37,666 nt of DNA from an uncultured Desulfobulbaceae bacterium (GTDB lineage Bacteria; Desulfobacterota; Desulfobulbia; Desulfobulbales; Desulfocapsaceae). The notes under the pieces were generated by a model. It ran no database searches and was not told the origin of the DNA. It worked only from the letters and a program-made list of their open reading frames with translations. The translations under genes were made by a program, and so were the position numbers. Shown here piece by piece: positions 14,886 through 31,400 of the stretch (its first letter is position 1; every line of letters begins with the position of its first letter). The stretch spans positions 1-37,666 of the forward strand of contig CAMZKN010000020.1 of the NCBI GenBank assembly GCA_947311315.1, given 5' to 3'.

Positions 14886-15341
14886 GTGATCCAAAGTAGA
14901 TTCCGGAGCAGAACAGAGCACACATTGGATGCGAAGGGGAGATTGAATTTCCCCAGCCGTTTCCGTGAAGTGCTTCGTCAAAATGGCTCGGAAGTACTGA
15001 TGATCGCTCCCTGGAACAGTCATCTTCGTGCGTATCCCGTGGCAGAATGGGAAGCATTGGAAACCAAACTGCTGACCCAGGGCGGAGAACAACCTGGAAT
15101 CGCCAGTTTTGTTCGTTACGTTGTTGGTGGTGTTGCTGAATGTAATCTTGATAAACAGGGACGAATATTGCTGCCAGCTGATTTACGGTCAGATGCTGGC
15201 CTGACAAAAGAAGTGATTCTTACGGGTATGCTTGACTGGGTGGAAATATGGGATAAAGAAGCTTCACTTGCCGAGATACAAACGACTCGTGGGAATTTTG
15301 AAAGCCACAATGCAAGCCTTGCCAAGTTGGGGATTTTGTAG
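14886..15341 (+). CDS. mraZ: Transcriptional regulator MraZ
   Basis: The conserved first gene of dcw clusters, an AbrB/SpoVT-fold DNA-binding protein that forms ring oligomers and represses its own operon. The 151-residue protein has the two duplicated motifs [14 protein letters not shown] (about 14-27) and [13 protein letters not shown] (about 92-104). The GTG start at 14886 follows GGGGAGG by a few bases and gives the expected N-terminus. The last base of its stop codon is the first base of the rsmH GTG, so the two are translationally coupled. A strong multi-box operator lies immediately upstream. Confidence 0.96.
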
Positions 15342-16240
15342 TGGGCACGGAAGCGGATAATGGGCAAATTCATATCCCGGTGCTTCTCCGTGAATGTATT
15401 GAATTTTTGGCTCCCCATGCTGGGGGCGTTTATGTGGACGGCACCTTAGGTTTGGGAGGACATACCCGGGAGATTTTGTCGCAGTCGGCTCCTGATGGAC
15501 GGGTCGTAGCTTTTGAATGGGATGAAAATGCACTGTATCACAATCAGGGAACTTTACGGGAATATAGAGAGCGATTAACGATTATTCGTCGTAATTTTGC
15601 CGAGATCGACGAGGGTTTGAAAGAAGCAGAAGTGGAAAAGATAGATGGCCTAATGATTGATGTTGGTCTTTCATCGCTACAGCTTGATTATGGTGAAAGG
15701 GGGTTCAGTTTCCAGCGGGATGCAGCACTTGATATGAGGATGGACAGCAGGAACGAAGTCTCTGCACAGTCAATTTTGGCCTCTGCCACTGAACAGGAAC
15801 TTGCGGATATCTTTTTCTATTATGGAGGAGAGAAGCAGGCCCGACCTATAGCCTTAGCCATTGTTGAAAACAGAAAAAAGGAAAGAATAGAGACGACAAA
15901 ACAACTGGTCTTGATTGTTGCCCATGCGATCCCAAAACGGTTTCATCCCAAAAAAATACATGTGGCAACGAAGGTTTTTCAGGCTCTGAGAATTGCAGTT
16001 AATACAGAGTTGGAAAACTTATCCAGGATAATCGATAACGGGGTGAAATACCTTAAACCAGGTGCCAGGTTTTGTGTCATTTCGTTTCATTCACTGGAGG
16101 ATAAAATTGTGAAACGAAAGTTCAAAAACAATGAACAACTGGAAGTTATTACTACGAAACCAGTAGTCCCGGGACTTGAGGAAGTTGCAGCAAATTCGAG
16201 AGCTAGAAGCGCCCGTTTAAGGGTCGCTGAAAAACGATAA
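15341..16240 (+). CDS. rsmH: 16S rRNA (cytosine-1402-N4)-methyltransferase RsmH (MraW)
   Basis: Methylates N4 of C1402 in the 16S rRNA decoding centre. The 299-residue protein shows HIPVLLRECIEFL near the start, the SAM-binding VYVDGTLGLGGHTREIL, DVGLSSLQLDYGERGFSF, and the C-terminal FCVISFHSLEDKIVKRKF and RSARLRVAEKR motifs. Its GTG start overlaps the mraZ stop by one base. This is the conserved second position of the dcw cluster. Confidence 0.97.
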   Translation: MGTEADNGQIHIPVLLRECIEFLAPHAGGVYVDGTLGLGGHTREILSQSAPDGRVVAFEWDENALYHNQGTLREYRERLTIIRRNFAEIDEGLKEAEVEKIDGLMIDVGLSSLQLDYGERGFSFQRDAALDMRMDSRNEVSAQSILASATEQELADIFFYYGGEKQARPIALAIVENRKKERIETTKQLVLIVAHAIPKRFHPKKIHVATKVFQALRIAVNTELENLSRIIDNGVKYLKPGARFCVISFHSLEDKIVKRKFKNNEQLEVITTKPVVPGLEEVAANSRARSARLRVAEKR

Positions 16241-16262: not shown

Positions 16263-16655
16263 ATGGATTATCAAAATTCAACTCAATTGTATATCCGACC
16301 AGCAATTAATATAGGTGTACGTCAGCAGCAGAGAAGACACAAACTTGTTTTTCCGGGTGGTGTGGCTTTGTGGCGTAGAACTGGCTGGATCTTGTTGCTC
16401 CTAATACCATTTGTGCTATTAATTAATACTTTTTTAGTTTCCAGTTTACAAAATGTTGATAAGTCGATTGAAGAAGTAAATATCAAGCGATATGAACTTA
16501 TAGACCAAAAGATAGGGCTTCTTGCGAAAAGAGCAGGAATGCTTGCACCAGCACATATAGAGAATACGGCATCGGCAAAATTATCATTGTATCTACCAGT
16601 GAAAAGACAGGTTGGTCATTTTAACCGCAGGACAGGAACCTTCAATTATCTCTAG
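16263..16655 (+). CDS. ftsL: FtsL-like small division protein
   Basis: The 130-residue protein occupies the ftsL position between rsmH and ftsI. It has a basic cytoplasmic N-terminus (about 1-40), one membrane segment (41-60, WILLLLIPFVLLINTFLVSS), then a short periplasmic helix likely to form a coiled coil (about 62-90) and a ~40-residue tail. That is the bitopic FtsL plan; FtsL sequences are poorly conserved, so the name rests on topology and context. FtsL normally forms a complex with FtsB and FtsQ that activates FtsW-FtsI, which makes its presence beside a degenerate FtsI noteworthy. A GGGGGAGGGG ribosome-binding site precedes the ATG. Confidence 0.75.
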   Translation: MDYQNSTQLYIRPAINIGVRQQQRRHKLVFPGGVALWRRTGWILLLLIPFVLLINTFLVSSLQNVDKSIEEVNIKRYELIDQKIGLLAKRAGMLAPAHIENTASAKLSLYLPVKRQVGHFNRRTGTFNYL

Positions 16656-16725: not shown

Positions 16726-18561
16726 ATGGCAAAGCAAACCCGCCTGGGAGCACAAAAACAAAAAACAGGCAGGCGGGTTGTTGTCTTTATACTCATTATT
16801 GTTGCAACCAGTGTTGCTTGGTACCTCGATAAAGAATATGAAATTGTAAAATATTTAAAGGAGATTCAAACTACTTTAACCGGTAGTATATCCGATATAA
16901 ATCCTGTGCGGGGAACTGTTTATGATAGAAATCTTAAACAACTTGCCGTAACCATGGAGAGGGTTTCAGTATATGTCAGAACCAGAGAAATTAGATCAAT
17001 TCCCGAGACTGTTCAGTTGCTGGGTTCTGTTTTGTCTCTGGACGAACAAAAATTGCAGGATCAATTGGAGAGTGGCCCTCTTCGGATTTGGATAGCAGAG
17101 GATATCACTCAACAACAGGAAGTTCTTCTTAAAGAAAAAAAGATGCCTGGCGTTTATCTGCAGAAAAACCAACGGCGTTTTTATCCTAATGGCTTTCATG
17201 CGGCTCATATTATTGGGTATGTCGAGAATAATATAGGTCTTGCTGGAGTTGAATACTACTTTGATCGCCTGTTGGCAAACAGGCAGGTAGAACGAAATTC
17301 AGAGAAACATTCGGCTGATCTCACTGATCTGGCTTTGACAATCGATTTAAAGATACAAGTCATCCTCGAGGATTTGGTTAATAAAATCGGTGCAGCGTAT
17401 GGTGCTGTCAGGGTTGCATCATACATTATGGATAGCAGGACGGGTGAAGTTGTAGCCGGGGCTCAGCTGCCAGGGTTTGACCCTAATTCTTTCACTGGAT
17501 ATTCTAAAAAAGTTCTTGAGAATTTTTTTCTCGTACCACTTCTGATACCGGACAAATTTCGTCTCTTTTTGAGAGATGCAGCGTTACTCAATGCGAATAA
17601 ACAGGCTGGTATAGCATACACTTCATGGAGCCTCAGTCCGCAAGATCTCAATCTTGGTGGCCAGTTGCGCCTGTGGGAAAAGCTTGATTTGAATAAAAGA
17701 CTGGAACTTGATTTTGGGTCTTTTGAATCAGAGGCAGATACGTGGAAAAACCGGGAAGTGCGCGTCCTTCCGGAAAAACAGCTGTTTGGTCTGGCGCCGG
17801 AGTATGCAACTCCTCTTAATCTTCTCACTGCATTTGCTTTTCTTTTGAATGGTGGTAGGCCTGTTCATCCCTTTGTCGTAAAAAAAGAAGCTACCGATGG
17901 GGTCAAACGGGATACTTTGCCCCAGGATGAACAATACGATTTGAACAGGTTTTTTGGTAGTCAGGCAAATAAAACAACGTCGGGTTCAGAGTATTTTCAA
18001 GATGAGATTCAGGTTTATACTTCGCCTTCGAATCAAATATCAAAATACACAATGATGTTTACTAGAATTCCGGCTGGAACGAGTGAACTGTTCATGTTGA
18101 CAGTAGCAGAAAGCATATTGACAGGGCCACATAAAAAGGGAGAGAAAACAATGATACCAATGGAACAGATCGTTGATAAAAGAATTGAGCGGATCTCAGT
18201 GTTGCAGCAGGTCGCAAAAAGCGTAGCGGATGTGGTTGAACCTGAACTCAGAGGTGAGGCAAATTATCCCCTGAAGGAAGATGTGATAGCGAGCTATTTT
18301 GGTGAAGACCCTCATAGAGAAAATACCATTCAACTCTTTGGGGTTATGCCGGATTTGCAGGGGTTGAGTTTGAGGAAAAGTTTGCGTATGTTACAAGGTG
18401 TTCGTATTAAAATCACCTTCAGAGGAACAGGAAAGGTAGTTCTTCAAACGCCAAACCCAGGGACACCATTGCGAAATATCAGTGAGTGTGAATTGATTTT
18501 GGAAAGATCGGAAGATATGGAATTTGAAAAAATCTCCCATGATCTTACTAAAGAAAATTAA
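16726..18561 (+). CDS. ftsI: FtsI/PBP3 homologue lacking transpeptidase catalytic motifs, with PASTA domain
   Basis: The 611-residue protein sits at the ftsI locus and keeps class B PBP architecture: basic N-terminus, membrane anchor (17-34), pedestal domain with RGTVYDRNLKQLAVT (62-76) and YPNGFHAAHIIGYVENN (153-169), a transpeptidase-like fold beginning YIMDSRTGEVVAGAQLPGFDPN (233-254), and a C-terminal PASTA-like domain (about 535-592). The active-site motifs are gone. Where FtsI has EPGSTFK there is IPDKFR (274-279), so the nucleophilic Ser and the general-base Lys are absent. The SxN position reads TSWSLS (about 299-304), and KTGT is replaced by KTTSG (416-420). The frame is intact with no stop or frameshift, pointing to a maintained pseudoenzyme rather than decay. 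Confidence 0.88.
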   Translation: MAKQTRLGAQKQKTGRRVVVFILIIVATSVAWYLDKEYEIVKYLKEIQTTLTGSISDINPVRGTVYDRNLKQLAVTMERVSVYVRTREIRSIPETVQLLGSVLSLDEQKLQDQLESGPLRIWIAEDITQQQEVLLKEKKMPGVYLQKNQRRFYPNGFHAAHIIGYVENNIGLAGVEYYFDRLLANRQVERNSEKHSADLTDLALTIDLKIQVILEDLVNKIGAAYGAVRVASYIMDSRTGEVVAGAQLPGFDPNSFTGYSKKVLENFFLVPLLIPDKFRLFLRDAALLNANKQAGIAYTSWSLSPQDLNLGGQLRLWEKLDLNKRLELDFGSFESEADTWKNREVRVLPEKQLFGLAPEYATPLNLLTAFAFLLNGGRPVHPFVVKKEATDGVKRDTLPQDEQYDLNRFFGSQANKTTSGSEYFQDEIQVYTSPSNQISKYTMMFTRIPAGTSELFMLTVAESILTGPHKKGEKTMIPMEQIVDKRIERISVLQQVAKSVADVVEPELRGEANYPLKEDVIASYFGEDPHRENTIQLFGVMPDLQGLSLRKSLRMLQGVRIKITFRGTGKVVLQTPNPGTPLRNISECELILERSEDMEFEKISHDLTKEN

Positions 18562-18591: not shown

Positions 18592-21500
18592 ATGGCTTCT
18601 ATGACCGTATCAAAATCATTAGTATCGCTCCTTACTGAATTGGATTTCCATGTAATTGGCGGCGACTTGCATCAGTCTCTTGAAAAGTTCCGTGTGAAAA
18701 GTATTACTTCTGATTCAAGAGATGTTGAGCAAGGCAGCCTCTTTGTAGCAATAAAAGGTGTGGAAAATGATGGTCATATCTTTATAGAGCAGGCGGTTGA
18801 AAAAGGTTGCAGAGCTATCATTTGTGAAAAAGAACCTTTAAACATCGAAACATTGACGGATGCAGGTGTCGTCGTTTTGGGAGTACCGGATACGCAGTCA
18901 GCGTATGCATCGATTGCAGCATGTTTTTATGGCAAACCAGCAGAAAATCTTTTCATGATTGGAGTGACTGGCACTAATGGTAAAACCACGGTGACATATC
19001 TTCTGGAACAGGTTTTAATTGAAGCTGGATTGTCTGTTGGAGTAATTGGCACAATTAACAATAGATACACAACTACAGATGGTTTCAGTAAAATTTTACC
19101 GACGCGATTTACTACACCTGAGGCACGTATTCTTCAAAAAACCCTACGTGAAATGGTTGATGCCGGTGTGGAATATGTCGTGATGGAGGTTTCGTCCCAC
19201 GCACTTGCCCAGTCAAGAGTTGGAGATATACGGTTCGATGGTGCTGTTTTCACAAATCTTTCAAGAGATCACCTTGATTATCATCGAGATATGGAAGACT
19301 ATTTTCATGCAAAGTCTCTGATGTTTTCCAGATTTTTAAAAGAAAAGGGTTTTGCCGTTCTGCCGGTACTTCCAGTCGGTGATGATTCTGATTCATGGCT
19401 GAAGAAATTATATACTTTGTGTCAAAAGCGGTCTGTGCATGTGAAAAGCTGGGGAGAGGGTGAACGTGCAGATATTCAGTTAAAGAATTTTTCGACGTCA
19501 CTGAGACATACTGAAGTTGATGTTCAAATATTAAGAGAAAAGTTCTGTATTCAATCATCGCTTGCCGGTCGATTTAATATTGATAATATTCTGACTGTGG
19601 TTGGAGTTTGTGAGTGTATGCAACTCTCAATTTCTACGGTTGTACAGTCTCTGTCACATGCGACAGGTGCTCCGGGAAGACTTGAGAGAGTATCTGGTAT
19701 TGCATCCGATGCACAACTGCCTGTGGTTCTTGTCGATTACGCCCATACGCCTGACGCTCTCGAAAAAGTATTGACGACAGTATCGGAACTTCCCCATAAC
19801 CACCTGTTTTGTGTATTTGGTTGTGGTGGTGACAGAGATAGCGGAAAGAGGGCAGTTATGGGTGAAATCGCTGGGAAATTTTGCGATGTCGCTGTGATAA
19901 CAGATGACAATCCCCGAACAGAGAATCCAGATGCTATTGTAACAGAAATTGTCACTGGCCTTAAACGTACGAAGATGGAATTGCAGAGTGAGGCTTGGTT
20001 TTTCCAAAGAAAGGATAATGAATGTGGTGGGCTTGTCATTCGCGATCGTAAAAAAGCAATTGAAAGTACGATAAAAGCTGCAAAAGCTGACGATATAGTC
20101 GTTATCGCCGGGAAAGGCCATGAGCCGTATCAACTGACATTACAAGGAAAGAGATTTTTCGATGACAGACTTGTCGCAGGCAGTGTGTTATGCTCCTGGA
20201 CTGTTGGTCTCATTGCTGAAGCGGTTGAAGGAAAGTGCTCCGGGAATTTTTACAAGGGGGAACTCCTTGGATCTGTTTCCACAGATAGCAGGATTGCAGG
20301 TGATCGAACTGTTTTTATTGCGCTGAGAGGAGAAAACTATGATGCGCATAAATTTGCTGTCCAGGCAGTGGAAAATGGTGCCTGTTGCCTTATAGTTGAA
20401 CGTGAGGTTAAATTACCACCGGGCAGTCAGGTCAGCCAGATTGTAGTGGCTAATACATTAAAAGCCCTTGGTGATTTGGCTGCTTATCGGCGAAAGTTGA
20501 TAGGGGTAAGAACCAAATTGCCGGTAATTGGAATTACAGGCAGTTGTGGCAAGACTACTGTGAAGGAAATGGTGGCATCTATTTTTGAAAAAATGTACCC
20601 CGCCGGATCGGATCATCCAGATGATTGTATTTTAAAAACACAGGGCAACTTTAATAACCTTATAGGACTGCCGTTATCTCTATTGCCTCTTGATGTACAA
20701 CATAAAGTGGCTGTACTGGAAATGGGCATGAATCAACCCGGAGAGTTGCAGCGTCTTGGAGAAATTTCAGATCCTGATATCAGTTGTATTGTCAACATAC
20801 ATGGTGCTCATTTAGAGGGTTTTCACTCAATTGAAGGTGTCGCGAGAGCTAAAGAGGAATTGTTCGCCTCTACTAAGAAAACAGGAACACTTGTCGTTAA
20901 TCTTGATGACGCAAGGGTTCTTGCACTTACAGAAAAATATTCACATAAAAAAGTAACCTATACCGTCTCGCCTGCTAATACAATCAGCGCTGATCTGTGG
21001 GTTTCTGAACTATGCCTGAATAAAGGTGGCGCGTCTTTTGCGCTTCACACACATGAGGAAAGGATAGATATCCAACTTAATATTCCAGGGGAGCACAATG
21101 TGTCCAATGCATTGGCGGCCGCAGCTATAGCAATGGCAGCAGGTGCCTGTCTGCAGGATATTTCAGTGGGGCTTGCGGAATGTCAACCGCACGACAAGCG
21201 GATGGAGATAGTGACGGCTGAAGCCGGATACAGAGTCATAAACGATACGTACAATGCAAATCCGGCTTCAGTGGCTGCAGGTCTGAAAACTTTGAAACAG
21301 ATGGCAGGCAGAACTTCGGTTGCGATAGTTGGTGATATGCTCGAGTTAGGTGATTCCTCAAAAGAGGCTCATCTTTCAATAGGAACACTACTTGCTGAGC
21401 TTGGTGTTGATTATGTTGGTGTGGTGGGTGAGTTTAAAGAAGACGTATTGAAAGGCGCTGTGTCAAATGGGTTTAACGAGAAAAACATACATGTTTTTGA

Positions 21501-21633
21501 GAATAAAGAGCACGCTGTAGATTGGATGAAAAAATTTGCCGAGCGAAAAATGTTTGGACAGGATGATGTCGTTCTGGTAAAGGCGTCCCGGGGCTTACGT
21601 TTTGAGACTATTGTTGAAGGATTAATGGACTAA
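18592..21633 (+). CDS. murE-murF: MurE-MurF fusion: UDP-MurNAc-tripeptide synthetase / D-Ala-D-Ala-adding ligase
   Basis: One uninterrupted 1013-residue frame encodes two complete Mur ligases. Residues 1 to about 533 are MurE: SDSRDVEQGSLFVAIKG, ATP site GVTGTNGKTT (124-133), SSHALAQSRV, and DDNPRTENP with DNPR at 439-442, the signature for meso-diaminopimelate as the added amino acid. Residues about 535-1013 are MurF: STDSRIAGDRTVFIALRG, ATP site GITGSCGKTT (647-656), EMGMNQPGEL and NDTYNANPAS. The product would perform two consecutive cytoplasmic steps, making the tripeptide and then the pentapeptide. ATG 18592 and ATG 18601 are both possible; neither has a clear ribosome-binding site. MurE-MurF fusions are known elsewhere, for example in Bordetella. 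Confidence 0.96.
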   Translation: MASMTVSKSLVSLLTELDFHVIGGDLHQSLEKFRVKSITSDSRDVEQGSLFVAIKGVENDGHIFIEQAVEKGCRAIICEKEPLNIETLTDAGVVVLGVPDTQSAYASIAACFYGKPAENLFMIGVTGTNGKTTVTYLLEQVLIEAGLSVGVIGTINNRYTTTDGFSKILPTRFTTPEARILQKTLREMVDAGVEYVVMEVSSHALAQSRVGDIRFDGAVFTNLSRDHLDYHRDMEDYFHAKSLMFSRFLKEKGFAVLPVLPVGDDSDSWLKKLYTLCQKRSVHVKSWGEGERADIQLKNFSTSLRHTEVDVQILREKFCIQSSLAGRFNIDNILTVVGVCECMQLSISTVVQSLSHATGAPGRLERVSGIASDAQLPVVLVDYAHTPDALEKVLTTVSELPHNHLFCVFGCGGDRDSGKRAVMGEIAGKFCDVAVITDDNPRTENPDAIVTEIVTGLKRTKMELQSEAWFFQRKDNECGGLVIRDRKKAIESTIKAAKADDIVVIAGKGHEPYQLTLQGKRFFDDRLVAGSVLCSWTVGLIAEAVEGKCSGNFYKGELLGSVSTDSRIAGDRTVFIALRGENYDAHKFAVQAVENGACCLIVEREVKLPPGSQVSQIVVANTLKALGDLAAYRRKLIGVRTKLPVIGITGSCGKTTVKEMVASIFEKMYPAGSDHPDDCILKTQGNFNNLIGLPLSLLPLDVQHKVAVLEMGMNQPGELQRLGEISDPDISCIVNIHGAHLEGFHSIEGVARAKEELFASTKKTGTLVVNLDDARVLALTEKYSHKKVTYTVSPANTISADLWVSELCLNKGGASFALHTHEERIDIQLNIPGEHNVSNALAAAAIAMAAGACLQDISVGLAECQPHDKRMEIVTAEAGYRVINDTYNANPASVAAGLKTLKQMAGRTSVAIVGDMLELGDSSKEAHLSIGTLLAELGVDYVGVVGEFKEDVLKGAVSNGFNEKNIHVFENKEHAVDWMKKFAERKMFGQDDVVLVKASRGLRFETIVEGLMD

Positions 21634-21699
21634 CGCATGATCATAGTCTGACTTTCTCGTATTTTTGTATTACTAATTTTTAAAGTGAGTTCGAACCTT

Positions 21700-22779
21700 A
21701 TGTTGTATCACTTTCTCTATCCTTTGCACACTGCTTTTTCCGGGTTTAATGTTTTCCGATATATAACTTTTCGTTCCATTGGTGGTGCAGTTACAGCATT
21801 TTTGGTTGTTTTATTCTTAGGACCACTTTTTATTCGGACAATGCGGTATTTCCAAATTGGTCAGGTTGTAAGAGATGATGGCCCGGAAACGCATCTGTCT
21901 AAACAGGGCGTGCCTACCATGGGTGGAGTGTTGATTCTAGCCGCTATAACTTCAGGTACTGTGTTGTGGGCTCGGCTGGATAATTCCCTGGTGTGGATGG
22001 GATTGTTTGTCACTCTTTTCTATGGGGGAATAGGAGCGATAGATGACTACAGGAAAATTAAGAAAAAGAATTCAAAAGGGTTAAGTGCAAAAGGTAAACT
22101 AATCCTGCAGGTTTGCGGAGCTGCTGTTGTAGGAGCATTTATCTTGTTACATCCTGGTTTCGATGGTCACTTAAGTTTACCGTTTTTTAAAAATTTCCAA
22201 CCTGATCTTGGTTGGTTTTATATTATTTTTGCCATCATTGTTATTGTTGGATCTTCAAATGCAGTAAATCTTACCGATGGTCTGGATGGCCTTGCGGCAG
22301 GCCCTATTGTGGTGACCGCCGCAGTGTATTTGGTGTTTTCTTATCTGGCTGGTCACGTTGTTCTTGCCGATTATCTGCAACTGCCCTATGTCGCTGGTAG
22401 TGGTGAATTGGCTATTTTCTGTGGCACAATATTTGGGGCCTGTCTCGGATTCATGTGGTTTAACGCCTATCCTGCACAGATGTTTATGGGTGATGTCGGA
22501 TCTTTGGCTTTGGGTGGTGCGCTCGGTTCTATTGCAATAATTATCAAACAGGAATTTCTACTGGCGATTGTTGGCGGAATCTTTGTTATGGAGGCATTGT
22601 CTGTGATAATGCAGGTTGGCTACTTTAAAATGACGCATGGTAAGCGGATTTTTCTCATGGCTCCATTTCACCATCATTTTGAGAAAAAGGGGTGGCATGA
22701 GTCTAAAGTTGTGGTCAGGTTTTGGATTGTTTCCATTATACTTGGTCTTTTTGCTCTTGCAACCTTGAAACTGAGATGA
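21700..22779 (+). CDS. mraY: Phospho-MurNAc-pentapeptide translocase MraY
   Basis: An integral membrane enzyme that attaches phospho-MurNAc-pentapeptide to undecaprenyl phosphate, forming lipid I. I start at ATG 21700 (MLYHFLYPLH), giving 359 residues, almost the E. coli length; a GTG at 21685 would add five residues. About ten hydrophobic segments are visible. Hallmarks are FNVFRYITFRSIGG, QVVRDDGPETHLSKQGVPTMGG, IDDYRK (catalytic Asp pair), NLTDGLDGLA, MFMGDVGSLALGG and the HHHFEKKGW loop. It is the only polytopic membrane protein in the cluster. Confidence 0.97.
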   Translation: MLYHFLYPLHTAFSGFNVFRYITFRSIGGAVTAFLVVLFLGPLFIRTMRYFQIGQVVRDDGPETHLSKQGVPTMGGVLILAAITSGTVLWARLDNSLVWMGLFVTLFYGGIGAIDDYRKIKKKNSKGLSAKGKLILQVCGAAVVGAFILLHPGFDGHLSLPFFKNFQPDLGWFYIIFAIIVIVGSSNAVNLTDGLDGLAAGPIVVTAAVYLVFSYLAGHVVLADYLQLPYVAGSGELAIFCGTIFGACLGFMWFNAYPAQMFMGDVGSLALGGALGSIAIIIKQEFLLAIVGGIFVMEALSVIMQVGYFKMTHGKRIFLMAPFHHHFEKKGWHESKVVVRFWIVSIILGLFALATLKLR

Positions 22780-22955: not shown

Positions 22956-24296
22956 ATGATATCTTCAGGTCAGAAAATTGCGGTTCTGGGGCTTGGCGTT
23001 TCAGGGCGGGCAGCGGTAAAGTACGCATTACTGTGCGGGGCTGAAGTCAGAGTCTCAGATGTACGGCCCGAAAAACAATTTCTTGAACAGGAAGGTTCTT
23101 TTCTGACGGCAACAGATGTTGAATGGGAAGCGGGTTGTCACACAGTCTCGTTTTTGAGATGGGCTGAAATCGTAATTGTCAGCCCTGGAATTAATACTGA
23201 AAAACCATTGTTTAAAGATTTAAAAAATGAAGGGATCCAGGTTGCAGGTGAGCTTGCAATAGCAGCTGGTTGTATCAATGTACCCGTTGTTGCGGTAACC
23301 GGAACCAATGGAAAAACGACTGTGACAACGCTGATCGGCAAATTGCTGGAGGGTGCAGGGAAAAAGGTTTTTGTTGGCGGCAATATTGGCACACCACTCT
23401 TTGAATATCTGTGCACTCCCGGAGATGTTGAATATGTTGTTGCTGAGGTGTCGAGCTTTCAGCTGGAGTGTTGTGGCAATTTTTCTCCTGATATTGCAGT
23501 GTTGGTCAATGTGACGCCTGATCATCTTGACCGACATTTAAATATGGAGAAATATTTCCAGGCAAAGAAGCAGCTTTTTCGCAATCTTGGCAAGGGGAAA
23601 ATTGCTATAATAAACTTGGATGACAGTCTCTGCAGACAACTGCAATGCCCTCCGGGGACGGGGTTACTCTCTTTTGGCAGGGAAAACTGTACAGCATCAT
23701 TACATGTGGATTCTGTCATTGTGTCCCTTAAGGGTAAAACAGAAATATTTGATCTTCGAGAAACAACTTTTGCTGGAAAAATCGGTGTACAAAATTGTGC
23801 TGCTGCAATTCTCGCGGCATCTTCACTTGGTTGTTCTGCAGAGCAAATAAGGAAGGTTATTAATGGTTTTAAGCCTCTGCCACATCGTCTGCAATTTGTA
23901 ATAAGAAAAAATGGTATTTCTTATTTTAACGATTCAAAAGCCACGAATACCGGGGCTGTAATTGCGGCGCTTGAACATTTTGACAATTCAGTTGTACTTA
24001 TTGTTGGTGGTCGTGACAAAGGTGATGACTACCGATTGCTCCGGGCAGGCATTGAAAATAAAGTTACCCAGGTTGTTACCATTGGAGAGGCAGCTGGCCT
24101 TCTGGAAGATGCTCTTTCTGATATTGTTGAGGTTGTTCGGGCAGAGACGATGAAGGAAGCTGTATATAAGGCGACACAGAGTTGTGATAAAGGTACAGTC
24201 CTTCTATCCCCGGCCTGCGCCAGTTTTGATATGTTCAAAAGTTATGGTCACCGGGGTGAGGAGTTTGTACGTGAGGTTCTGGATCTTTGCGGATAA
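22956..24296 (+). CDS. murD: UDP-N-acetylmuramoyl-L-alanine:D-glutamate ligase MurD
   Basis: Adds D-Glu to UDP-MurNAc-L-Ala in the cytoplasm. The 446-residue protein has the N-terminal nucleotide-binding fold (AVLGLGVSGRAAVKYAL), the ATP site AVTGTNGKTTVTTLIGK, AEVSSFQLE, VNVTPDHLDRH, and the C-terminal FNDSKATNTGAV and LLSPACASFDMFKSYGHRGEEF motifs typical of MurD. In most dcw clusters ftsW lies directly downstream; here murG follows after only 21 bp. Confidence 0.97.
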   Translation: MISSGQKIAVLGLGVSGRAAVKYALLCGAEVRVSDVRPEKQFLEQEGSFLTATDVEWEAGCHTVSFLRWAEIVIVSPGINTEKPLFKDLKNEGIQVAGELAIAAGCINVPVVAVTGTNGKTTVTTLIGKLLEGAGKKVFVGGNIGTPLFEYLCTPGDVEYVVAEVSSFQLECCGNFSPDIAVLVNVTPDHLDRHLNMEKYFQAKKQLFRNLGKGKIAIINLDDSLCRQLQCPPGTGLLSFGRENCTASLHVDSVIVSLKGKTEIFDLRETTFAGKIGVQNCAAAILAASSLGCSAEQIRKVINGFKPLPHRLQFVIRKNGISYFNDSKATNTGAVIAALEHFDNSVVLIVGGRDKGDDYRLLRAGIENKVTQVVTIGEAAGLLEDALSDIVEVVRAETMKEAVYKATQSCDKGTVLLSPACASFDMFKSYGHRGEEFVREVLDLCG

Positions 24297-24317
24297 AAAA
24301 GCATCGGAGTTAGTGAA

Positions 24318-25436
24318 TTGGGTAAGGCAAATAAAAGAATTCGAATACTGTTCACCGGCGGAGGCACCGGTGGTCATCTGTTTCCTGCAGTGGCGACAGC
24401 ACAGGCCTTCAAAGAAAAATTTCCAGGCTGCAGCATATTCTTTGTAGGCACAAAACGGAAAGTTGATGAACGTAGTCTTGCCGCCTACGGTTTTGAGTTT
24501 GAAAACATTCGCTGTTATGGTTTGAAAGGTAAAAATCCTATTGAGTTGTTGAAGGCTCTTTGTATTTTACCTTTGTCATATGTTCAGGCTTTAAAAATCA
24601 TTCGTGGGTTTCGGCCTGATATTATTGTTGGCGTCGGTGGTTATGTGACGGGGCCTGTTGTTGCGGCCGGAAAAAGTCTTGGGATTCCTTCAGTTATTCA
24701 TGAACAGAATTCGGTGCCAGGTCTGGCCAATCGAAAGCTGGGGCAACTTGTAGACAGAGTATGTCTGTCACTGCCTGATAGTGGGGATGCATTTCCCGCG
24801 GAGAAAATCGTCTATACCGGTAATCCGGTACGAAAAAACATTCTTGAACTGGCAGCTTTTGTTCCCCCAGAACACACCGGGAAAAAAACAATTCTTGTCC
24901 TTGGAGGAAGTCAGGGTGCACACGGAGTTAATCGTCTGGTCATTGAAGCGTTGACATCTTTATCTGGTCAGGTATTGTCAGGAATCAGAGTGATTCACCA
25001 AACCGGGGAAGCGGACGTGGAAATGGTGGAAAAAGCATATAAAACAAAGGACATTGAAGCGGAGGTTCGTCCTTTTTTTAAGCAGATGCATGATGTGTAT
25101 GGTCAGGCGGATCTTCTTGTCTCAAGAGCGGGTGCCACAACTCTGTCTGAGCTTGCGGTTCTTGGCAAACCCGCTTTGCTGGTTCCTTATCCCTTTGCTG
25201 CAGACAACCATCAGGAAAAAAACAGTGACTATTATGTGGCCGGTGGTGGAGCACGAAAATATAATGAAAAAGAAGTAACAGGTAAAGAACTTGCCAGTGA
25301 GATTGTGCAGTTAATTGTTGACGAGGAAAAATTGAAAAATATGGGAAATGCAATGCGGCAGCTTGCTTTTCCCGATGCGGCCGAAAAGATCGTGGCATGT
25401 TGCCTGCAACTGGTTCGACCTGTTAATGGAAAATAA
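24318..25436 (+). CDS. murG: UDP-GlcNAc:lipid I N-acetylglucosaminyltransferase MurG
   Basis: A peripheral inner-membrane glycosyltransferase that converts lipid I to lipid II. The 372-residue protein shows FTGGGTGGHLFPAVATAQAF (glycine loop), DIIVGVGGYVTGPVV, VIHEQNSVPGLANRKLG, LGGSQGAHGVN and the UDP-GlcNAc site RAGATTLSELAVLGKPALLVP with DNHQEKN. It uses a TTG start (24318) with GGAG about nine bases upstream; no in-frame ATG precedes the conserved region. Its stop and the murC ATG share one base. Confidence 0.97.
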   Translation: MGKANKRIRILFTGGGTGGHLFPAVATAQAFKEKFPGCSIFFVGTKRKVDERSLAAYGFEFENIRCYGLKGKNPIELLKALCILPLSYVQALKIIRGFRPDIIVGVGGYVTGPVVAAGKSLGIPSVIHEQNSVPGLANRKLGQLVDRVCLSLPDSGDAFPAEKIVYTGNPVRKNILELAAFVPPEHTGKKTILVLGGSQGAHGVNRLVIEALTSLSGQVLSGIRVIHQTGEADVEMVEKAYKTKDIEAEVRPFFKQMHDVYGQADLLVSRAGATTLSELAVLGKPALLVPYPFAADNHQEKNSDYYVAGGGARKYNEKEVTGKELASEIVQLIVDEEKLKNMGNAMRQLAFPDAAEKIVACCLQLVRPVNGK

Positions 25437-26806
25437 TGTATAGAAGAACGAAACATATTCATTTTGTCGGAATTGGTGGCATCGGTATGAGTGGCATTGC
25501 CGAATTGCTCCTTAATTTAGGGTATAAGGTCTCGGGCTCTGATTTAAGCGATTCATCTATTACGGAAAAATTGTCCAGGCTTGGCGGAATAATTTACAAA
25601 GGCCATAAAAGTGATTGGGCGGAAGGTGCTGATGTTGTCGTTACTTCGTCTGCTATATCAAAGACCAACCCGGAAGTTGTCTGGGCAAGGGAGACAAATA
25701 TTCCGGTTATTATGCGCGCTGAAATGCTTGCAGAACTGATGCGGCTGAAAAAATATGGTATTGCCATTGCGGGAAGTCACGGTAAGACATCGACCACCTC
25801 TATGGTGAGCTGGATGCTTGCCAATGCCGGTCTTGATCCGACTATCGTCATTGGTGGTAAGGTTGATGCCCTTGGCGGGAATGCCAAACTGGGTGAGAGT
25901 GATTTCCTAGTGGCGGAAGCTGATGAAAGTGATGGATCGTTTTTGAAATTGTCGCCGGTGCTTGAAGTTATAACCAATATAGATCTGGAACATCTTGATT
26001 ATTATCGTGATCTGGAACACATAAAAGAGACTTTTCTTGAGTTTATCGATAAAATTCCATTTTATGGTGCAGCGATTGTCTGTCTTGATGATGCTAATAT
26101 CGCGGATATTCTCCCTGCAATACAAAAAAGAACGATAACCTACGGCATGACACCCCAGGCTGACATATGGGCCGACAGCGTCGTCGGTCAGGAAGGTCGT
26201 GTTTCTTTCAGAGTGAAACAGGGACCAAATGTACTGGGCACCTTGGATATTGCCCCTCCCGGTCTACATAACGTTTATAACGCCTTGGCGGCAATCTGCG
26301 TTGGTCTTGAGCTAAAACTTTCCTTTGAAAAGATTAAAAGTGGACTGCAGACCTATGCTGGGGTTCAGCGGCGTATGCAAAAAAAAGGTGAGATTGCAGG
26401 AATTACTGTTGTTGATGACTATGGGCATCATCCAACTGAAATCAGGGCAACACTGGGAGCTATAAAAGATGCATGGCCGGATAAACGTCTGGTGGTACTT
26501 TTTCAGCCCCATAGATACTCTCGTACTGAGGGGCTTTTCAAGGAATTTCAAACCTGTTTTCATAAGGCTGATTATCTTATTATGACAGATATTTATGCGG
26601 CAAGTGAAACACCGATTCCCGGGGTCTCCGGTGAATCATTGCTTGAGGCGACAAAAAAACATGGCCAAAAACACACACATTTTATCAAAAACGTCGAAAC
26701 GATGGCAGATGAACTGTTCCCCATGTTGAAGGCAAATGATCTTGTTTTAACGCTGGGAGCAGGTAATATTGTCAGGGTTGGAGAAGATCTACTGGCAAAA
26801 TTATAA
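25436..26806 (+). CDS. murC: UDP-N-acetylmuramate:L-alanine ligase MurC
   Basis: First amino-acid addition in peptidoglycan precursor synthesis. The 456-residue protein begins with the Rossmann motif HFVGIGGIGMSGIAELL, followed by SGSDLSDS, the ATP site IAGSHGKTSTTSMV, AEADESDGSF, NIDLEHLDYY and the C-terminal DDYGHHPTEIRATL and FQPHRYSRT motifs. It overlaps the murG stop by one base, and murB follows after 16 bp. Confidence 0.97.
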   Translation: MYRRTKHIHFVGIGGIGMSGIAELLLNLGYKVSGSDLSDSSITEKLSRLGGIIYKGHKSDWAEGADVVVTSSAISKTNPEVVWARETNIPVIMRAEMLAELMRLKKYGIAIAGSHGKTSTTSMVSWMLANAGLDPTIVIGGKVDALGGNAKLGESDFLVAEADESDGSFLKLSPVLEVITNIDLEHLDYYRDLEHIKETFLEFIDKIPFYGAAIVCLDDANIADILPAIQKRTITYGMTPQADIWADSVVGQEGRVSFRVKQGPNVLGTLDIAPPGLHNVYNALAAICVGLELKLSFEKIKSGLQTYAGVQRRMQKKGEIAGITVVDDYGHHPTEIRATLGAIKDAWPDKRLVVLFQPHRYSRTEGLFKEFQTCFHKADYLIMTDIYAASETPIPGVSGESLLEATKKHGQKHTHFIKNVETMADELFPMLKANDLVLTLGAGNIVRVGEDLLAKL

Positions 26807-26822: not shown

Positions 26823-27746
26823 ATGGAACCGGGCGTAAAAGAAAAACTTTCAGGAATGTTTCCAGGGAAGATACAATGGAATTGCAGCTTGAAAGAGTAT
26901 ACCACTTTTTCAATAGGCGGGCGGGCACAGGCTCTGGTGAAGGTGACGGATCGCAATGAGTTGCAAAAATTGCTTTGTTTTGTTGATGCTAAAGGTCTTT
27001 TATGGAGAGTTATCGGTCGCGGTTCAAACCTCCTTATAAGTGACAATGGTTTTCCTGGAATTATTATTGTTTTGCAGGGAGATTTTTCACGGTTTACAAA
27101 AAATGTGGTTGAAGAGAGCAAAGATGTGGTTATTCGGGTTGGAGCAGGCTGCAGCCTTGGTCGTCTCCTTAAAAACTGTGTAGATAGCGGCTTTTCTGGG
27201 CTGGAATTTACTGTTGGTATTCCCGGAACAGTAGGTGGTGCCCTGGTTATGAATGCTGGCGCCGGTGGAGAAGAGCTGGGTACAGTTGCCGGAAGCGTGA
27301 CCCTTATGACACAAAATGGTATAGTTGAGCTGGGGAAAAATGAACTTGATTTTACCTATAGATCGTGGCGTGGTTTTGATAAATTCAGGCCAAAATCAGT
27401 AATTATTGAGTCTGAATTTTTTTTAAAGAAGGGTGATGTTCGGCAGATAAAAGCATCGTGTCAGGATTTGTCCGAGCGACGAAAGCGAACACAACCTCTT
27501 GAGTATGCTAATGCCGGCTCGTTTTTTAAAAATCCTGTAGGTGATAGTGCTGGCAGGTTGATTGAGGCAAGTGGTTGTAAAGGTATGAACGTTGGTGGTG
27601 CTGCCGTTTCTGATAAGCATGCCAATTTTTTAGTCAATTGTGGTAATGCTACGGCATCTGATGTGCTGGGGCTGATGAGAAAAGTTCAGAGAAAGGTGAG
27701 AATAAACAGTGGAATACGATTGATTCCTGAAGTTCATTTTCTCTAA
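26823..27746 (+). CDS. murB: UDP-N-acetylenolpyruvoylglucosamine reductase MurB
   Basis: An FAD-dependent enzyme that reduces enolpyruvyl-UDP-GlcNAc to UDP-MurNAc. The 307-residue protein shows the flavin-binding TTFSIGGRAQALVKV, GRGSNLLISDNGF, VGIPGTVGGALVMNAGAGG, and the catalytic Ser region YANAGSFFKNP with a C-terminal Glu in LIPEVHFL. The length and YANAGSFFKNP context suggest the shorter, type II form. No ddl gene follows it, unlike many proteobacterial dcw clusters. Confidence 0.96.
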   Translation: MEPGVKEKLSGMFPGKIQWNCSLKEYTTFSIGGRAQALVKVTDRNELQKLLCFVDAKGLLWRVIGRGSNLLISDNGFPGIIIVLQGDFSRFTKNVVEESKDVVIRVGAGCSLGRLLKNCVDSGFSGLEFTVGIPGTVGGALVMNAGAGGEELGTVAGSVTLMTQNGIVELGKNELDFTYRSWRGFDKFRPKSVIIESEFFLKKGDVRQIKASCQDLSERRKRTQPLEYANAGSFFKNPVGDSAGRLIEASGCKGMNVGGAAVSDKHANFLVNCGNATASDVLGLMRKVQRKVRINSGIRLIPEVHFL

Positions 27747-27769: not shown

Positions 27770-28771
27770 ATGCTGATCACTACACTTAAAAAACTGTTTG
27801 TTAAGTCTTCCAGAAGAAAGGTTGGTAGTTCCTACCTTAGTGCTGACTTCTCCAGTTGCAATATTCCTGGTAAAAAACGCCAGTCTTCTGATGATAAAAC
27901 CAGCATTTTACGCCTGCAGCAGTGGTTGGCTTCCAGAAAAAGAAAAAAAGAGAATGGTTACAGGGGAAGCAGACCCCACAGTCGACAATTCTTGAGGTTT
28001 GGAGGCTTGTTTTTTGTTGGTTGTTGTCTGCTGTTGTTTTTTGTGGCAGGAGGCGGTGCTGGGCTTCAAAAGAAACTTCAATCTCTTTCGTTTTTCAAGG
28101 TAAATGAGGTTGTTCTTTCCGGGGGAAGTATAGTCTCACAGGTTGCAGTACGAAATGCAGCGGCTATTGTTCTGCACCAAAGAAGTCTTATAGGTCTTGA
28201 CTGTGCAGCAATTGAAAAAAGAATAGGTGCCGTCGATTGGGTTTCAACTGCAAAAGTCACACGAAACTGGCCTTCGACGATAGAGATTACAGTAAAAGAA
28301 GATGTTCCTGTTGCGCTTTTACATATCAAGGGTGCAAGGGAAGCGACAGAGTTGTATTATATTGACAGGAAGGGCAAAGTATTTTTACCTGTTGAACCTG
28401 GTGACGATATTGATTTTCCTGTTATTACCGGCTGGTTTGACATTAAAAATTCGGAAACTAAAGAGCAGGCTCTCTCCGAAGTGCTCATTTTTTTGAGGAA
28501 ACTTCGTGTCAATAATCCGCATCTGCCCACTCAGTCAGTATCTGAGATACACGTAAACCAGAATGGAGAAATGGTAGTGTATCTTGTGGAATATCCATTC
28601 CCTATTTTCTTTGGAAATGGTAACACTAAAACAAAATATGCCCGTTTAGTTCAGGTACTAAAAGCACTCTATAAAAAGAAAAGAGGCAAAGAGCTGATCT
28701 CCCGGGTGGAATATATTCAAATGAATTATCTGAATGACAAGGTACTCGTTGCACAGAGTGGATCGGGATAA
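27770..28771 (+). CDS. ftsQ: Cell division protein FtsQ
   Basis: A bitopic protein that links early and late divisome proteins through FtsL/FtsB. The 333-residue protein has an unusually long, basic cytoplasmic N-terminus (about 1-76), one membrane helix (about 77-98), then a POTRA domain (about 106-176: FFKVNEVVLSGGSIVS to WPSTIEITVKEDVPVALL), followed by the FtsQ-type beta domain. The order murB-ftsQ-ftsA-ftsZ supports the name. An alternative start downstream would shorten the tail, but no better ribosome-binding site is seen. Confidence 0.9.
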   Translation: MLITTLKKLFVKSSRRKVGSSYLSADFSSCNIPGKKRQSSDDKTSILRLQQWLASRKRKKENGYRGSRPHSRQFLRFGGLFFVGCCLLLFFVAGGGAGLQKKLQSLSFFKVNEVVLSGGSIVSQVAVRNAAAIVLHQRSLIGLDCAAIEKRIGAVDWVSTAKVTRNWPSTIEITVKEDVPVALLHIKGAREATELYYIDRKGKVFLPVEPGDDIDFPVITGWFDIKNSETKEQALSEVLIFLRKLRVNNPHLPTQSVSEIHVNQNGEMVVYLVEYPFPIFFGNGNTKTKYARLVQVLKALYKKKRGKELISRVEYIQMNYLNDKVLVAQSGSG

Positions 28772-28777
28772 CAACGA

Positions 28778-30064
28778 ATGGATGATAATAAGAAACCAGT
28801 GATGAGCAGTAAAACTGAATCAACAGAATTAATAGCAGTTGACGATGAGAATCAAGTTCCTGGAGAACTGATTATTGGGCTTGATATAGGCACAACAAAG
28901 ATTTGTTGTGTTGTCGGAGAGTTGTTTGATAACAGAATTGAGGTAATTGGTGTTGGCACGGTGCCGTCCCTTGGTTTGAAAAAGGGTATTGTTGTCAATA
29001 TCGAAAGCACAGTTACCTCGATTCGGCAGGCTATGGCAAAAGCTGAAGAGGAAGCCGGTTGCGACCTCAGTTCAGTGTATGTTTATGTTGGGATAGCGGG
29101 CAACCACATTAAAGGATTCAATAGTCCTGGTATTCTCGCTATAAACAACCGGGAAATCAAACAGGTGGATATTGATGCCGTAATCGATGCCGCACGAACT
29201 GTTAAGATATCTGAAAATCAGCGAATAATTCATGTAATGCCTCAGGAGTACATGGTTGATGATCATACCGGAATCCAAAACCCTGTTGGTATGACCGGTG
29301 TTCGACTGGTCACAAATGTTCACATTGTGACTGCTGATATTGGTGCAGTTCATAATCTTGTGACCTGTTGCAATAAGGCCGGATTGGAAGTGGCTGAACT
29401 TGTTTTGGAGTCGATAGCATCAGCACATGCCGTGCTGAGCAAAGATGAAATGGAGCTGGGAGTGGCTCTTATTGATATAGGTGGAGGTACCACCGATCTT
29501 GCTGTCTTTTATGACGGTACAATAAGACACACATGTGAAATTGGCCTCGGGGGACACAACCTGACCAATGATCTTTCAGTTGGTCTGCGTACACCGTTGC
29601 AGGAGGCGGAACGTCTTAAGGAGGATTATGGTGGAGCTATTTCCTCTATTATTAAGCCTAATTTAGTTGTTGAAGTACCTACCGTCGGGGATAGGGAGCC
29701 ACGAAAAGTAACGCAGAAAGTACTTGTGGATATTCTGGAAGCGAGAATAATTGAAATACTGGAAATGATGGCGCGGGAACTTGTGATTTCTGGACAAAAG
29801 AATAAAATTAATGGTGGGATTGTTATTACCGGTGGGACGGCATTACTTGCAAATCTTGTGGATCTTGCAGAACAGATTTTTGATTTGCCTGTGCGCATCG
29901 GTTATCCTTCTGGTATTTCGGGAAAAATAGATGAGTTGCATAATCCACGTTGCACGACTGCTGTGGGGCTTGTAATGTTTGGCAGGAATAATCAAAATAT
30001 CAACGGCGGTCATGAGTCAGGAGTAGTGGGCAGGGTTCGGGAATGGATGAAGAAAATTATGTAA
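28778..30064 (+). CDS. ftsA: Cell division protein FtsA
   Basis: Actin-like membrane tether for FtsZ. The 428-residue protein shows phosphate-binding LIIGLDIGTTKICCVVGE, the SHS2/1C insert region, VLIDIGGGTTDLAVF-like IDIGGGTTDLAVFYDG, GIVITGGTALLANL and a C-terminal amphipathic helix (VGRVREWMKKIM) suited to membrane binding. It follows ftsQ by six bases and precedes ftsZ, as expected. Confidence 0.97.
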   Translation: MDDNKKPVMSSKTESTELIAVDDENQVPGELIIGLDIGTTKICCVVGELFDNRIEVIGVGTVPSLGLKKGIVVNIESTVTSIRQAMAKAEEEAGCDLSSVYVYVGIAGNHIKGFNSPGILAINNREIKQVDIDAVIDAARTVKISENQRIIHVMPQEYMVDDHTGIQNPVGMTGVRLVTNVHIVTADIGAVHNLVTCCNKAGLEVAELVLESIASAHAVLSKDEMELGVALIDIGGGTTDLAVFYDGTIRHTCEIGLGGHNLTNDLSVGLRTPLQEAERLKEDYGGAISSIIKPNLVVEVPTVGDREPRKVTQKVLVDILEARIIEILEMMARELVISGQKNKINGGIVITGGTALLANLVDLAEQIFDLPVRIGYPSGISGKIDELHNPRCTTAVGLVMFGRNNQNINGGHESGVVGRVREWMKKIM

Positions 30065-30182: not shown

Positions 30183-31400
30183 ATGCCGTTTAGGATGGCA
30201 GAATCAGAAGCTGTTGCAGTTGTTAAGGTCATAGGTGTTGGTGGTGGCGGCGGGAATGCCATTAATACAATGGTGGCTAATTGTCTTCAGGGAGTAGAAT
30301 TCGTTGCAGCTAATACAGACAAACAGGCACTGAATCAATCCAAAGCGGACATTTGTCTGCAGCTTGGTCCGAGTATTACCAAAGGGCTTGGTGCCGGCGC
30401 TGATCCTGAGACGGGTAATATGGCTGCAATGGAATCCGTGGAAGAGATCAGGGAGATTCTTAAAGGCAGCGATATGGTTTTTGTCACTGCAGGTCTTGGT
30501 GGTGGAACAGGAACCGGGGCGGCACCGGTAGTTGCCAAAGTAAGTAAAGAAATGGGCGCTTTGACGGTTGCAGTGGTCACAAGGCCATTTAGTTTTGAAG
30601 GAAAATTCAGAGCAAAAAATGCTGATAGTGGCTGGGCTGAACTACAGAAATATTCTGATACCATTATTACCGTTCCCAATGATCGACTTTTGTCTATTAT
30701 GCAGAAAAACAGTAAGTTGTCTGATATGCTGGCCATGGCCGATACTGTTTTACTGCAGGCTGTCAAAGGTATTACTGATCTTATTAACGTTCCCGGGTTG
30801 ATAAATGCTGACTTTGCCGATTTGCGTACTGTGATGCGAGAAGTAGGACCCGCAGTTATGGGTGCTGGTGTTGCAGTCGGCGAAAACAGAGCAGGAGAAG
30901 CAGCCAGAAAAGCAATTGATAATCAGTTACTTGAAGATTTTGGTATTGATGGTGCGCGCGGACTGCTTATTAATATTTCTGCATCTGAAGAGAGTTTCAC
31001 CATGTCAGAATTTATGGAAGCTTCCGCTCTGATTCAGGAAAAAGTTGATGATGACGCCAAAATTGTTATTGGCGCACTCTATGATGATGCTCTTGGTGAT
31101 GAACTGCATGTTACCGTCATTGCTACCGGAGTAGGCGGAATGCTCGATAAGAAAGAGACAATTAATCCGGTTGAGGACCATATGAAGAAACCGGTTGCCA
31201 TAGATCCAGAAAGAGTCACCAAAGGGGCACCTGCTTCACCGAACAGGCAGCCAAAGGTCAGCCGTCTTCCCGGCTCTAACTTTGAGACTCTTGATAATAT
31301 GGGATCTTCTAGTGTTCCTGAAGGTGGCGGTGAGCATTCCTCTCATTGGAATGATGATTATCTGGAGACGCCAACCTATCTTCGTAAAAAGGCCAATTGA
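30183..31400 (+). CDS. ftsZ: Cell division GTPase FtsZ
   Basis: The tubulin homologue that forms the Z-ring. The 405-residue protein has KVIGVGGGGGNAINTM (near the N-terminus), ANTDKQALNQS, tubulin signature GLGGGTGTGAAPVVA, NADFADLRTVM with the T7-loop catalytic acid, and a variable linker ending in the conserved tail peptide DDYLETPTYLRKKAN that binds FtsA and other partners. AGGGGG is a strong ribosome-binding site. All GTPase and polymerisation motifs look intact, so Z-ring formation should be normal despite the altered FtsI locus. Confidence 0.98.
   Translation: MPFRMAESEAVAVVKVIGVGGGGGNAINTMVANCLQGVEFVAANTDKQALNQSKADICLQLGPSITKGLGAGADPETGNMAAMESVEEIREILKGSDMVFVTAGLGGGTGTGAAPVVAKVSKEMGALTVAVVTRPFSFEGKFRAKNADSGWAELQKYSDTIITVPNDRLLSIMQKNSKLSDMLAMADTVLLQAVKGITDLINVPGLINADFADLRTVMREVGPAVMGAGVAVGENRAGEAARKAIDNQLLEDFGIDGARGLLINISASEESFTMSEFMEASALIQEKVDDDAKIVIGALYDDALGDELHVTVIATGVGGMLDKKETINPVEDHMKKPVAIDPERVTKGAPASPNRQPKVSRLPGSNFETLDNMGSSSVPEGGGEHSSHWNDDYLETPTYLRKKAN

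Follow-up and report, generated by a model that had tools for sequence, protein, structure and literature searches.

A probable FtsI pseudoenzyme in the dcw cluster of an uncultured Desulfobulbaceae bacterium that appears to lack FtsW

The window analyzed here is a 37,666-nt stretch of DNA from an uncultured Desulfobulbaceae bacterium, placed by its named relatives within the Desulfobulbales, near Desulforhopalus, Desulfopila and Desulfocapsa. It contains a complete dcw cluster comprising mraZ, mraW, an ftsL-like gene, ftsI, murE-murF, mraY, murD, murG, murC, murB, ftsQ, ftsA and ftsZ. The genes and the features of the ftsI product, which we refer to as pseudo-FtsI, are as follows.

14886..15341, + strand: mraZ (Pfam)
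15341..16240, + strand: mraW (rsmH) (Pfam)
16263..16655, + strand: FtsL-like short protein, 130 aa, with one hydrophobic stretch (assigned by position and shape only; no Pfam match)
16726..18561, + strand: pseudo-FtsI, 611 aa, built like a class B PBP but with no catalytic transpeptidase site
16765..16839, + strand: pseudo-FtsI N-terminal membrane helix, residues 14-38 (helix in the model; hydrophobic sequence)
16897..17295, + strand: pseudo-FtsI pedestal domain (PBP_dimer), residues 58-190, with strong conservation
17338..18225, + strand: pseudo-FtsI degenerate transpeptidase-like domain, residues 205-500 (fold match; no PF00905 match)
17545..17565, + strand: pseudo-FtsI lost SxxK nucleophile site, I274-L280, IPDKFRL
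17620..17637, + strand: pseudo-FtsI TSWSLS, residues 299-304, a conserved WS motif adjoining the deleted SxN segment
17971..18021, + strand: pseudo-FtsI K416-T432, strand before the expected KTG, which falls in an alignment gap
18343..18501, + strand: pseudo-FtsI C-terminal PASTA domain, residues 540-592, the most conserved part
18592..21633, + strand: MurE-MurF fusion, 1013 aa (NCBIfam PRK11929)
21685..22779, + strand: mraY (Pfam)
22956..24296, + strand: murD (Pfam)
24297..24317, + strand: murD-murG junction, 21 bp, the usual place of ftsW, which is absent
24318..25436, + strand: murG (Pfam)
25436..26806, + strand: Mur ligase, murC by position (Pfam)
26823..27746, + strand: murB (Pfam)
27770..28771, + strand: ftsQ, weak match (NCBIfam E 2e-5, below the cut-off)
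28778..30064, + strand: ftsA (NCBIfam)
30183..31400, + strand: ftsZ (NCBIfam)

A MurE-MurF fusion (~980-1050 aa) was also seen in the Desulfobulbales genome G156 and in families f66, f76, f86, f91 and f108; murE and murF are separate genes in families f100 and f28.

The ftsI open reading frame starts with ATG and encodes 611 aa without an internal stop. A Pfam scan of the product matched PBP_dimer (residues 58-169) and PASTA (540-586) and gave no match to the Transpeptidase domain PF00905, and NCBIfam PBP models cover the protein mainly up to about residue 260. Its AlphaFold model (mean pLDDT 80) matched SpoVD (7rcz), P. aeruginosa PBP3 and the FtsI of the FtsWIQBL complex (8bh1) with Z scores of ~30 over residues 58-496. 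The gene thus meets the criteria for FtsI membership with respect to its position in the ftsL-murE slot and to its N-terminal transmembrane helix, pedestal and transpeptidase-like fold, and fails those that require the catalytic SxxK, SxN and KTG motifs and a cognate FtsW.

When the protein was aligned with active relatives, their PGSTFK corresponded to P275-D-K-F-R-L280, placing K277 at the position of the serine and L280 at that of the lysine. In an alternative register anchored on the invariant R279, the two positions are taken by D276 and R279. Neither register provides a Ser or a Ser-x-x-Lys at the nucleophile site, the segment containing SSN is mostly deleted, and the KTGT position is an alignment gap right after the strand formed by residues 422-432. 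The original prediction, that the FtsI at this locus is a transpeptidase pseudoenzyme, therefore held on conservation, selection and the structure model, as did its view that the FtsI-type fold and a PASTA-like tail are kept (Pfam PBP_dimer and PASTA; the structural matches above). The loss of the SxxK site, which had been read as IPDKFR (274-279), was confirmed with a refined register. Two motif readings failed: TSWSLS, taken as the SxN site, is part of a WS motif whose conservation is specific to the family, and KTTSG (416-420), taken as KTGT, precedes the true place of that motif. The prediction had named an alternative Ser and Lys as a result that would refute it, and none was found. Thus, the window FtsI is almost certainly a catalytically inactive pseudoenzyme, although this conclusion, with regard to both activity and beta-lactam binding, is inferred from sequence alone.

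The catalytic motifs were missing in all 52 aligned FtsI homologues of the Desulfobulbales and in 61 named loci of the order (L101-L160 and L168), two sets that overlap in genomes; every Desulfobulbales dcw locus that we looked at encodes an FtsI without them. Elsewhere in the order, other families have PGAINR, PGGIGR or PGELTR at the nucleophile site, such that the scaffold of the loop is kept and the Ser-x-x-Lys is lost. The same search recovered PGSTFK, SSN and KTGT in the FtsI of outgroup deltaproteobacteria and in Geobacillus SpoVD. Because the loss recurs across the Desulfobulbales, chance or sequencing error can be ruled out as its cause, and no frame error was found. In one genome, G028, the FtsI frame is split into two ORFs (L069:4405-5697). 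All dead forms cluster together in the FtsI tree with a support of 1.00 but on long branches, while in the dcw tree an ftsW-positive lineage (L163, L166 and L177) lies next to the ftsW-less family f28. Between these two trees, we cannot decide whether FtsI was inactivated once or several times.

ftsW was found neither in the dcw cluster of the window nor elsewhere in the window genome, whose single SEDS gene is rodA, located directly downstream of mreBCD and PBP2. Our script scored 137 dcw loci as having an inactive FtsI; three of them (L221, L223 and L224) were removed because the wrong ORF had been picked and FtsI was intact, and none of the remaining 134, in which some genomes are counted twice, contained a SEDS gene. 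In outgroup dcw loci that extended far enough, ftsW was found save where the cluster was interrupted. At the genome level, 53 of 57 genomes (the window genome and relatives, from 15 families) had a SEDS match, one each, and three of the four without a match were less than 90% complete; the usual number across the phylum is two per genome. The absence of FtsW is therefore very likely. The rodA of one of the 53, G046, lies in two frames (L248:6656-7788) that break at a C homopolymer, and the split may represent a sequencing error, phase variation or a real loss; given the possibility of sequencing error, it was not used as evidence. In families f35 and f65, the murD-murG interval where ftsW would lie holds a multi-pass membrane protein of ~260 aa (L229:7085-7879, L230:7107-7892, L232:6692-7483, L233:8551-9336 and L237:5651-6436). 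We rejected it as an FtsW for lack of detectable similarity, and the single representative scanned had no Pfam match.

Alternatively, an unrecognized FtsI or FtsW could be encoded outside the dcw cluster, given that the window genome assembly is a draft of 230 contigs, 96% complete. However, relatives with complete single-contig genomes likewise carry a single SEDS gene (in G046, the two-frame rodA), their full-domain PF00905 match is PBP2, a PBP_dimer search of G046 gave no further class B PBP, and the absence is repeated across the Desulfobulbales. A second class B FtsI, which the original prediction had proposed searching for, was not found in the window genome. We consider this explanation all but excluded.

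ftsW is likewise missing from the dcw clusters of other one-SEDS families in the phylum, whose ftsI-slot gene becomes progressively shorter, from 513-643 aa in f66, f76, f91, f100, f108, f86 and f28 to 451-455 aa in f75, 410 aa in f40, 324 aa in f39 and ~250-345 aa in f35 and f65. In these last two, what can be recognized is a membrane helix and a PASTA-like end. Families f39 and f75 may correspond to Thermodesulfobacterium and Thermodesulfatator. Even the shortest genes remain between ftsL and murE, and these were assigned to FtsI by position and PASTA only. The FtsI of f28 (L211:2798-4729) matches the transpeptidase profile (E 9e-29) and has YELGELAGF in place of YEPGSTFK, with both the Ser and the Lys lost, and likely represents an early stage of inactivation. 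The loss of ftsW, the order-wide occurrence of dead FtsI and this series were not part of the original prediction.

We then considered whether the dead FtsI is maintained by selection. For nine close pairs, dN/dS was 0.12-0.29 for ftsI and 0.10-0.29 for the dead domain alone, near the 0.12-0.21 of the neighboring murEF, which shows that the gene is under purifying selection. Mean pairwise identity for the pedestal, the transpeptidase-like domain and PASTA was 0.44, 0.29 and 0.52, respectively, in the dead set, versus 0.36, 0.41 and 0.36 in the active set. The active set is small and of different divergence, so that domains rather than absolute identities should be compared; on this basis, the pedestal and PASTA have taken over from the transpeptidase domain as the constrained parts of the dead FtsI. 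One could argue that the protein is a functionless, decaying relic, as the ftsI-slot gene is down to ~250 aa in some families and the frame is split in G028. Yet dN/dS resembles that of the adjoining murEF, the frame is intact in nearly all genomes, the pedestal and PASTA contain invariant residues and the shortest versions still occupy the ftsL-murE slot, which makes this explanation very unlikely. We infer that the dead FtsI is very likely kept for a non-catalytic function; the suggestion that it may persist as a non-catalytic part of the divisome was thus supported by conservation, selection and the structure model.

If FtsW is gone and FtsI is dead, another enzyme must make the division wall. 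A PF00905 search of the window genome returned three proteins and no others, namely PBP2 and class A PBPs of 621 and 1116 aa, with SxxK and KTG motifs. The transpeptidase region of the 1116-aa protein (L094:1671-5021) is interrupted by a long insert, and class A PBPs of ~1100-1180 aa were found again in many Desulfobulbales genomes. A class A PBP was present in 80 of 80 genomes tested, and in several ftsW-less families it is the only one, at ~660-730 aa; all control genomes with FtsW have one as well, so its presence does not discriminate. PBP2-RodA was found in every well-assembled genome checked. We dropped G156, which seemed to lack SEDS, PBP2 and MreB, as an argument for class A septation, since the neighboring hemH is also missing and an assembly gap is likely.

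Known systems offer partial parallels. The window FtsI shares its dcw position, membrane anchor, pedestal and transpeptidase-like fold with FtsI/PBP3 of P. aeruginosa and E. coli in FtsWIQBL, but lacks SxxK, SxN, KTG and an FtsW partner and has a PASTA domain. Its top structural and profile matches are class B PBPs of the SpoVD/PBP1 type (C. difficile SpoVD, 7rcz; S. aureus PBP1, which aligns through the PASTA region too); unlike the window protein, these have transpeptidase activity and pair with a SEDS protein. In B. subtilis, PBP2B supports division even when catalytically inactive (PMC5656894), and its S309A form resembles the window FtsI as an inactive FtsI orthologue serving as a structural part, although it is a laboratory mutant whose missing activity is supplied by PBP3. 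In C. difficile, septum synthesis falls to the class A PBP1 and elongation to RodA-PBP2, and PBP3 aids division non-catalytically (PMC10693644, PMC12539705). Both this divisome and that of the window genome lack a canonical FtsW/FtsI pair and have RodA-PBP2 and a class A PBP; C. difficile differs in belonging to the Bacillota, in keeping SpoVE/SpoVD for sporulation and in that its PBP3 retains a catalytic activity dispensable for its division role. Two criteria for SEDS-independent septation of the C. difficile type, namely no canonical active FtsW-FtsI pair and a class A PBP, are satisfied here, whereas septal synthesis driven by the class A PBP is inferred by analogy.

Our main reading, to which we assign a probability of roughly 0.6 and which rests on analogy without experiment, is that FtsI is kept as a non-catalytic divisome subunit while a class A PBP makes the septal wall. 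Pseudo-FtsI would be a membrane-anchored structural and regulatory subunit whose membrane helix and pedestal, by analogy, dock on FtsL/FtsQ/FtsB and whose PASTA domain may act as a sensor of nascent wall or of other partners in the periplasm. Septal peptidoglycan would be polymerized and cross-linked by a class A PBP that pseudo-FtsI recruits or activates, and PBP2-RodA with MreBCD would carry out elongation. The main rival, which remains possible, is that a single RodA-PBP2 pair builds both lateral and septal wall by switching between MreB and FtsZ complexes, with pseudo-FtsI as a divisome adaptor. One SEDS protein and one active class B PBP are left in the window genome and rodA-PBP2 is kept across the Desulfobulbales, both of which are consistent with this idea, whereas the location of the pair with mreBCD in the window genome argues against it. 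No result presented here separates the two as septal synthase, and the class A PBP is favored by analogy. It is also conceivable that a class A PBP makes only the glycan and that L,D-transpeptidases or stand-alone transpeptidases do most of the septal cross-linking. This would fit the loss of FtsI activity and is among the options raised for C. difficile (PMC12539705), but the class A PBPs possess transpeptidase motifs of their own and we find it unlikely. Of the two sources of cross-linking first suggested, another PBP or L,D-transpeptidases, the former is thus favored in the shape of a class A PBP and the latter is a minor rival.

FtsW-FtsI has been called nearly universal for walled bacteria (PMC10693644). 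ftsW had already been noted as absent in two Electrothrix and two Desulfobulbus genomes, with FtsI treated as a normal divisome member; with respect to ftsW, this work places cable bacteria in the affected group (PMC7873302). The dcw cluster of Thermodesulfobacteria has also been described as having lost ftsW (PMC8871954). We found no earlier report of a dead or shrinking FtsI in the literature searched. We infer that division in the Desulfobulbales, and it appears in several related lineages as well, proceeds without the usual FtsW-FtsI wall-building pair. A bolder reading, for and against which we would give even odds, is that SEDS-driven septation was given up by Gram-negative lineages of the Desulfobacterota, including all Desulfobulbales and, it appears, Thermodesulfobacteria and further classes, and that FtsI lost catalysis together with FtsW and then shrank in the direction of a PASTA protein, anchored in the membrane, that regulates a divisome based on a class A PBP. 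A whole Gram-negative order in this state, together with related families in which FtsI grades from degenerate to truncated, would make testable both the non-catalytic role of FtsI and the question of which enzyme can stand in for FtsW-FtsI.
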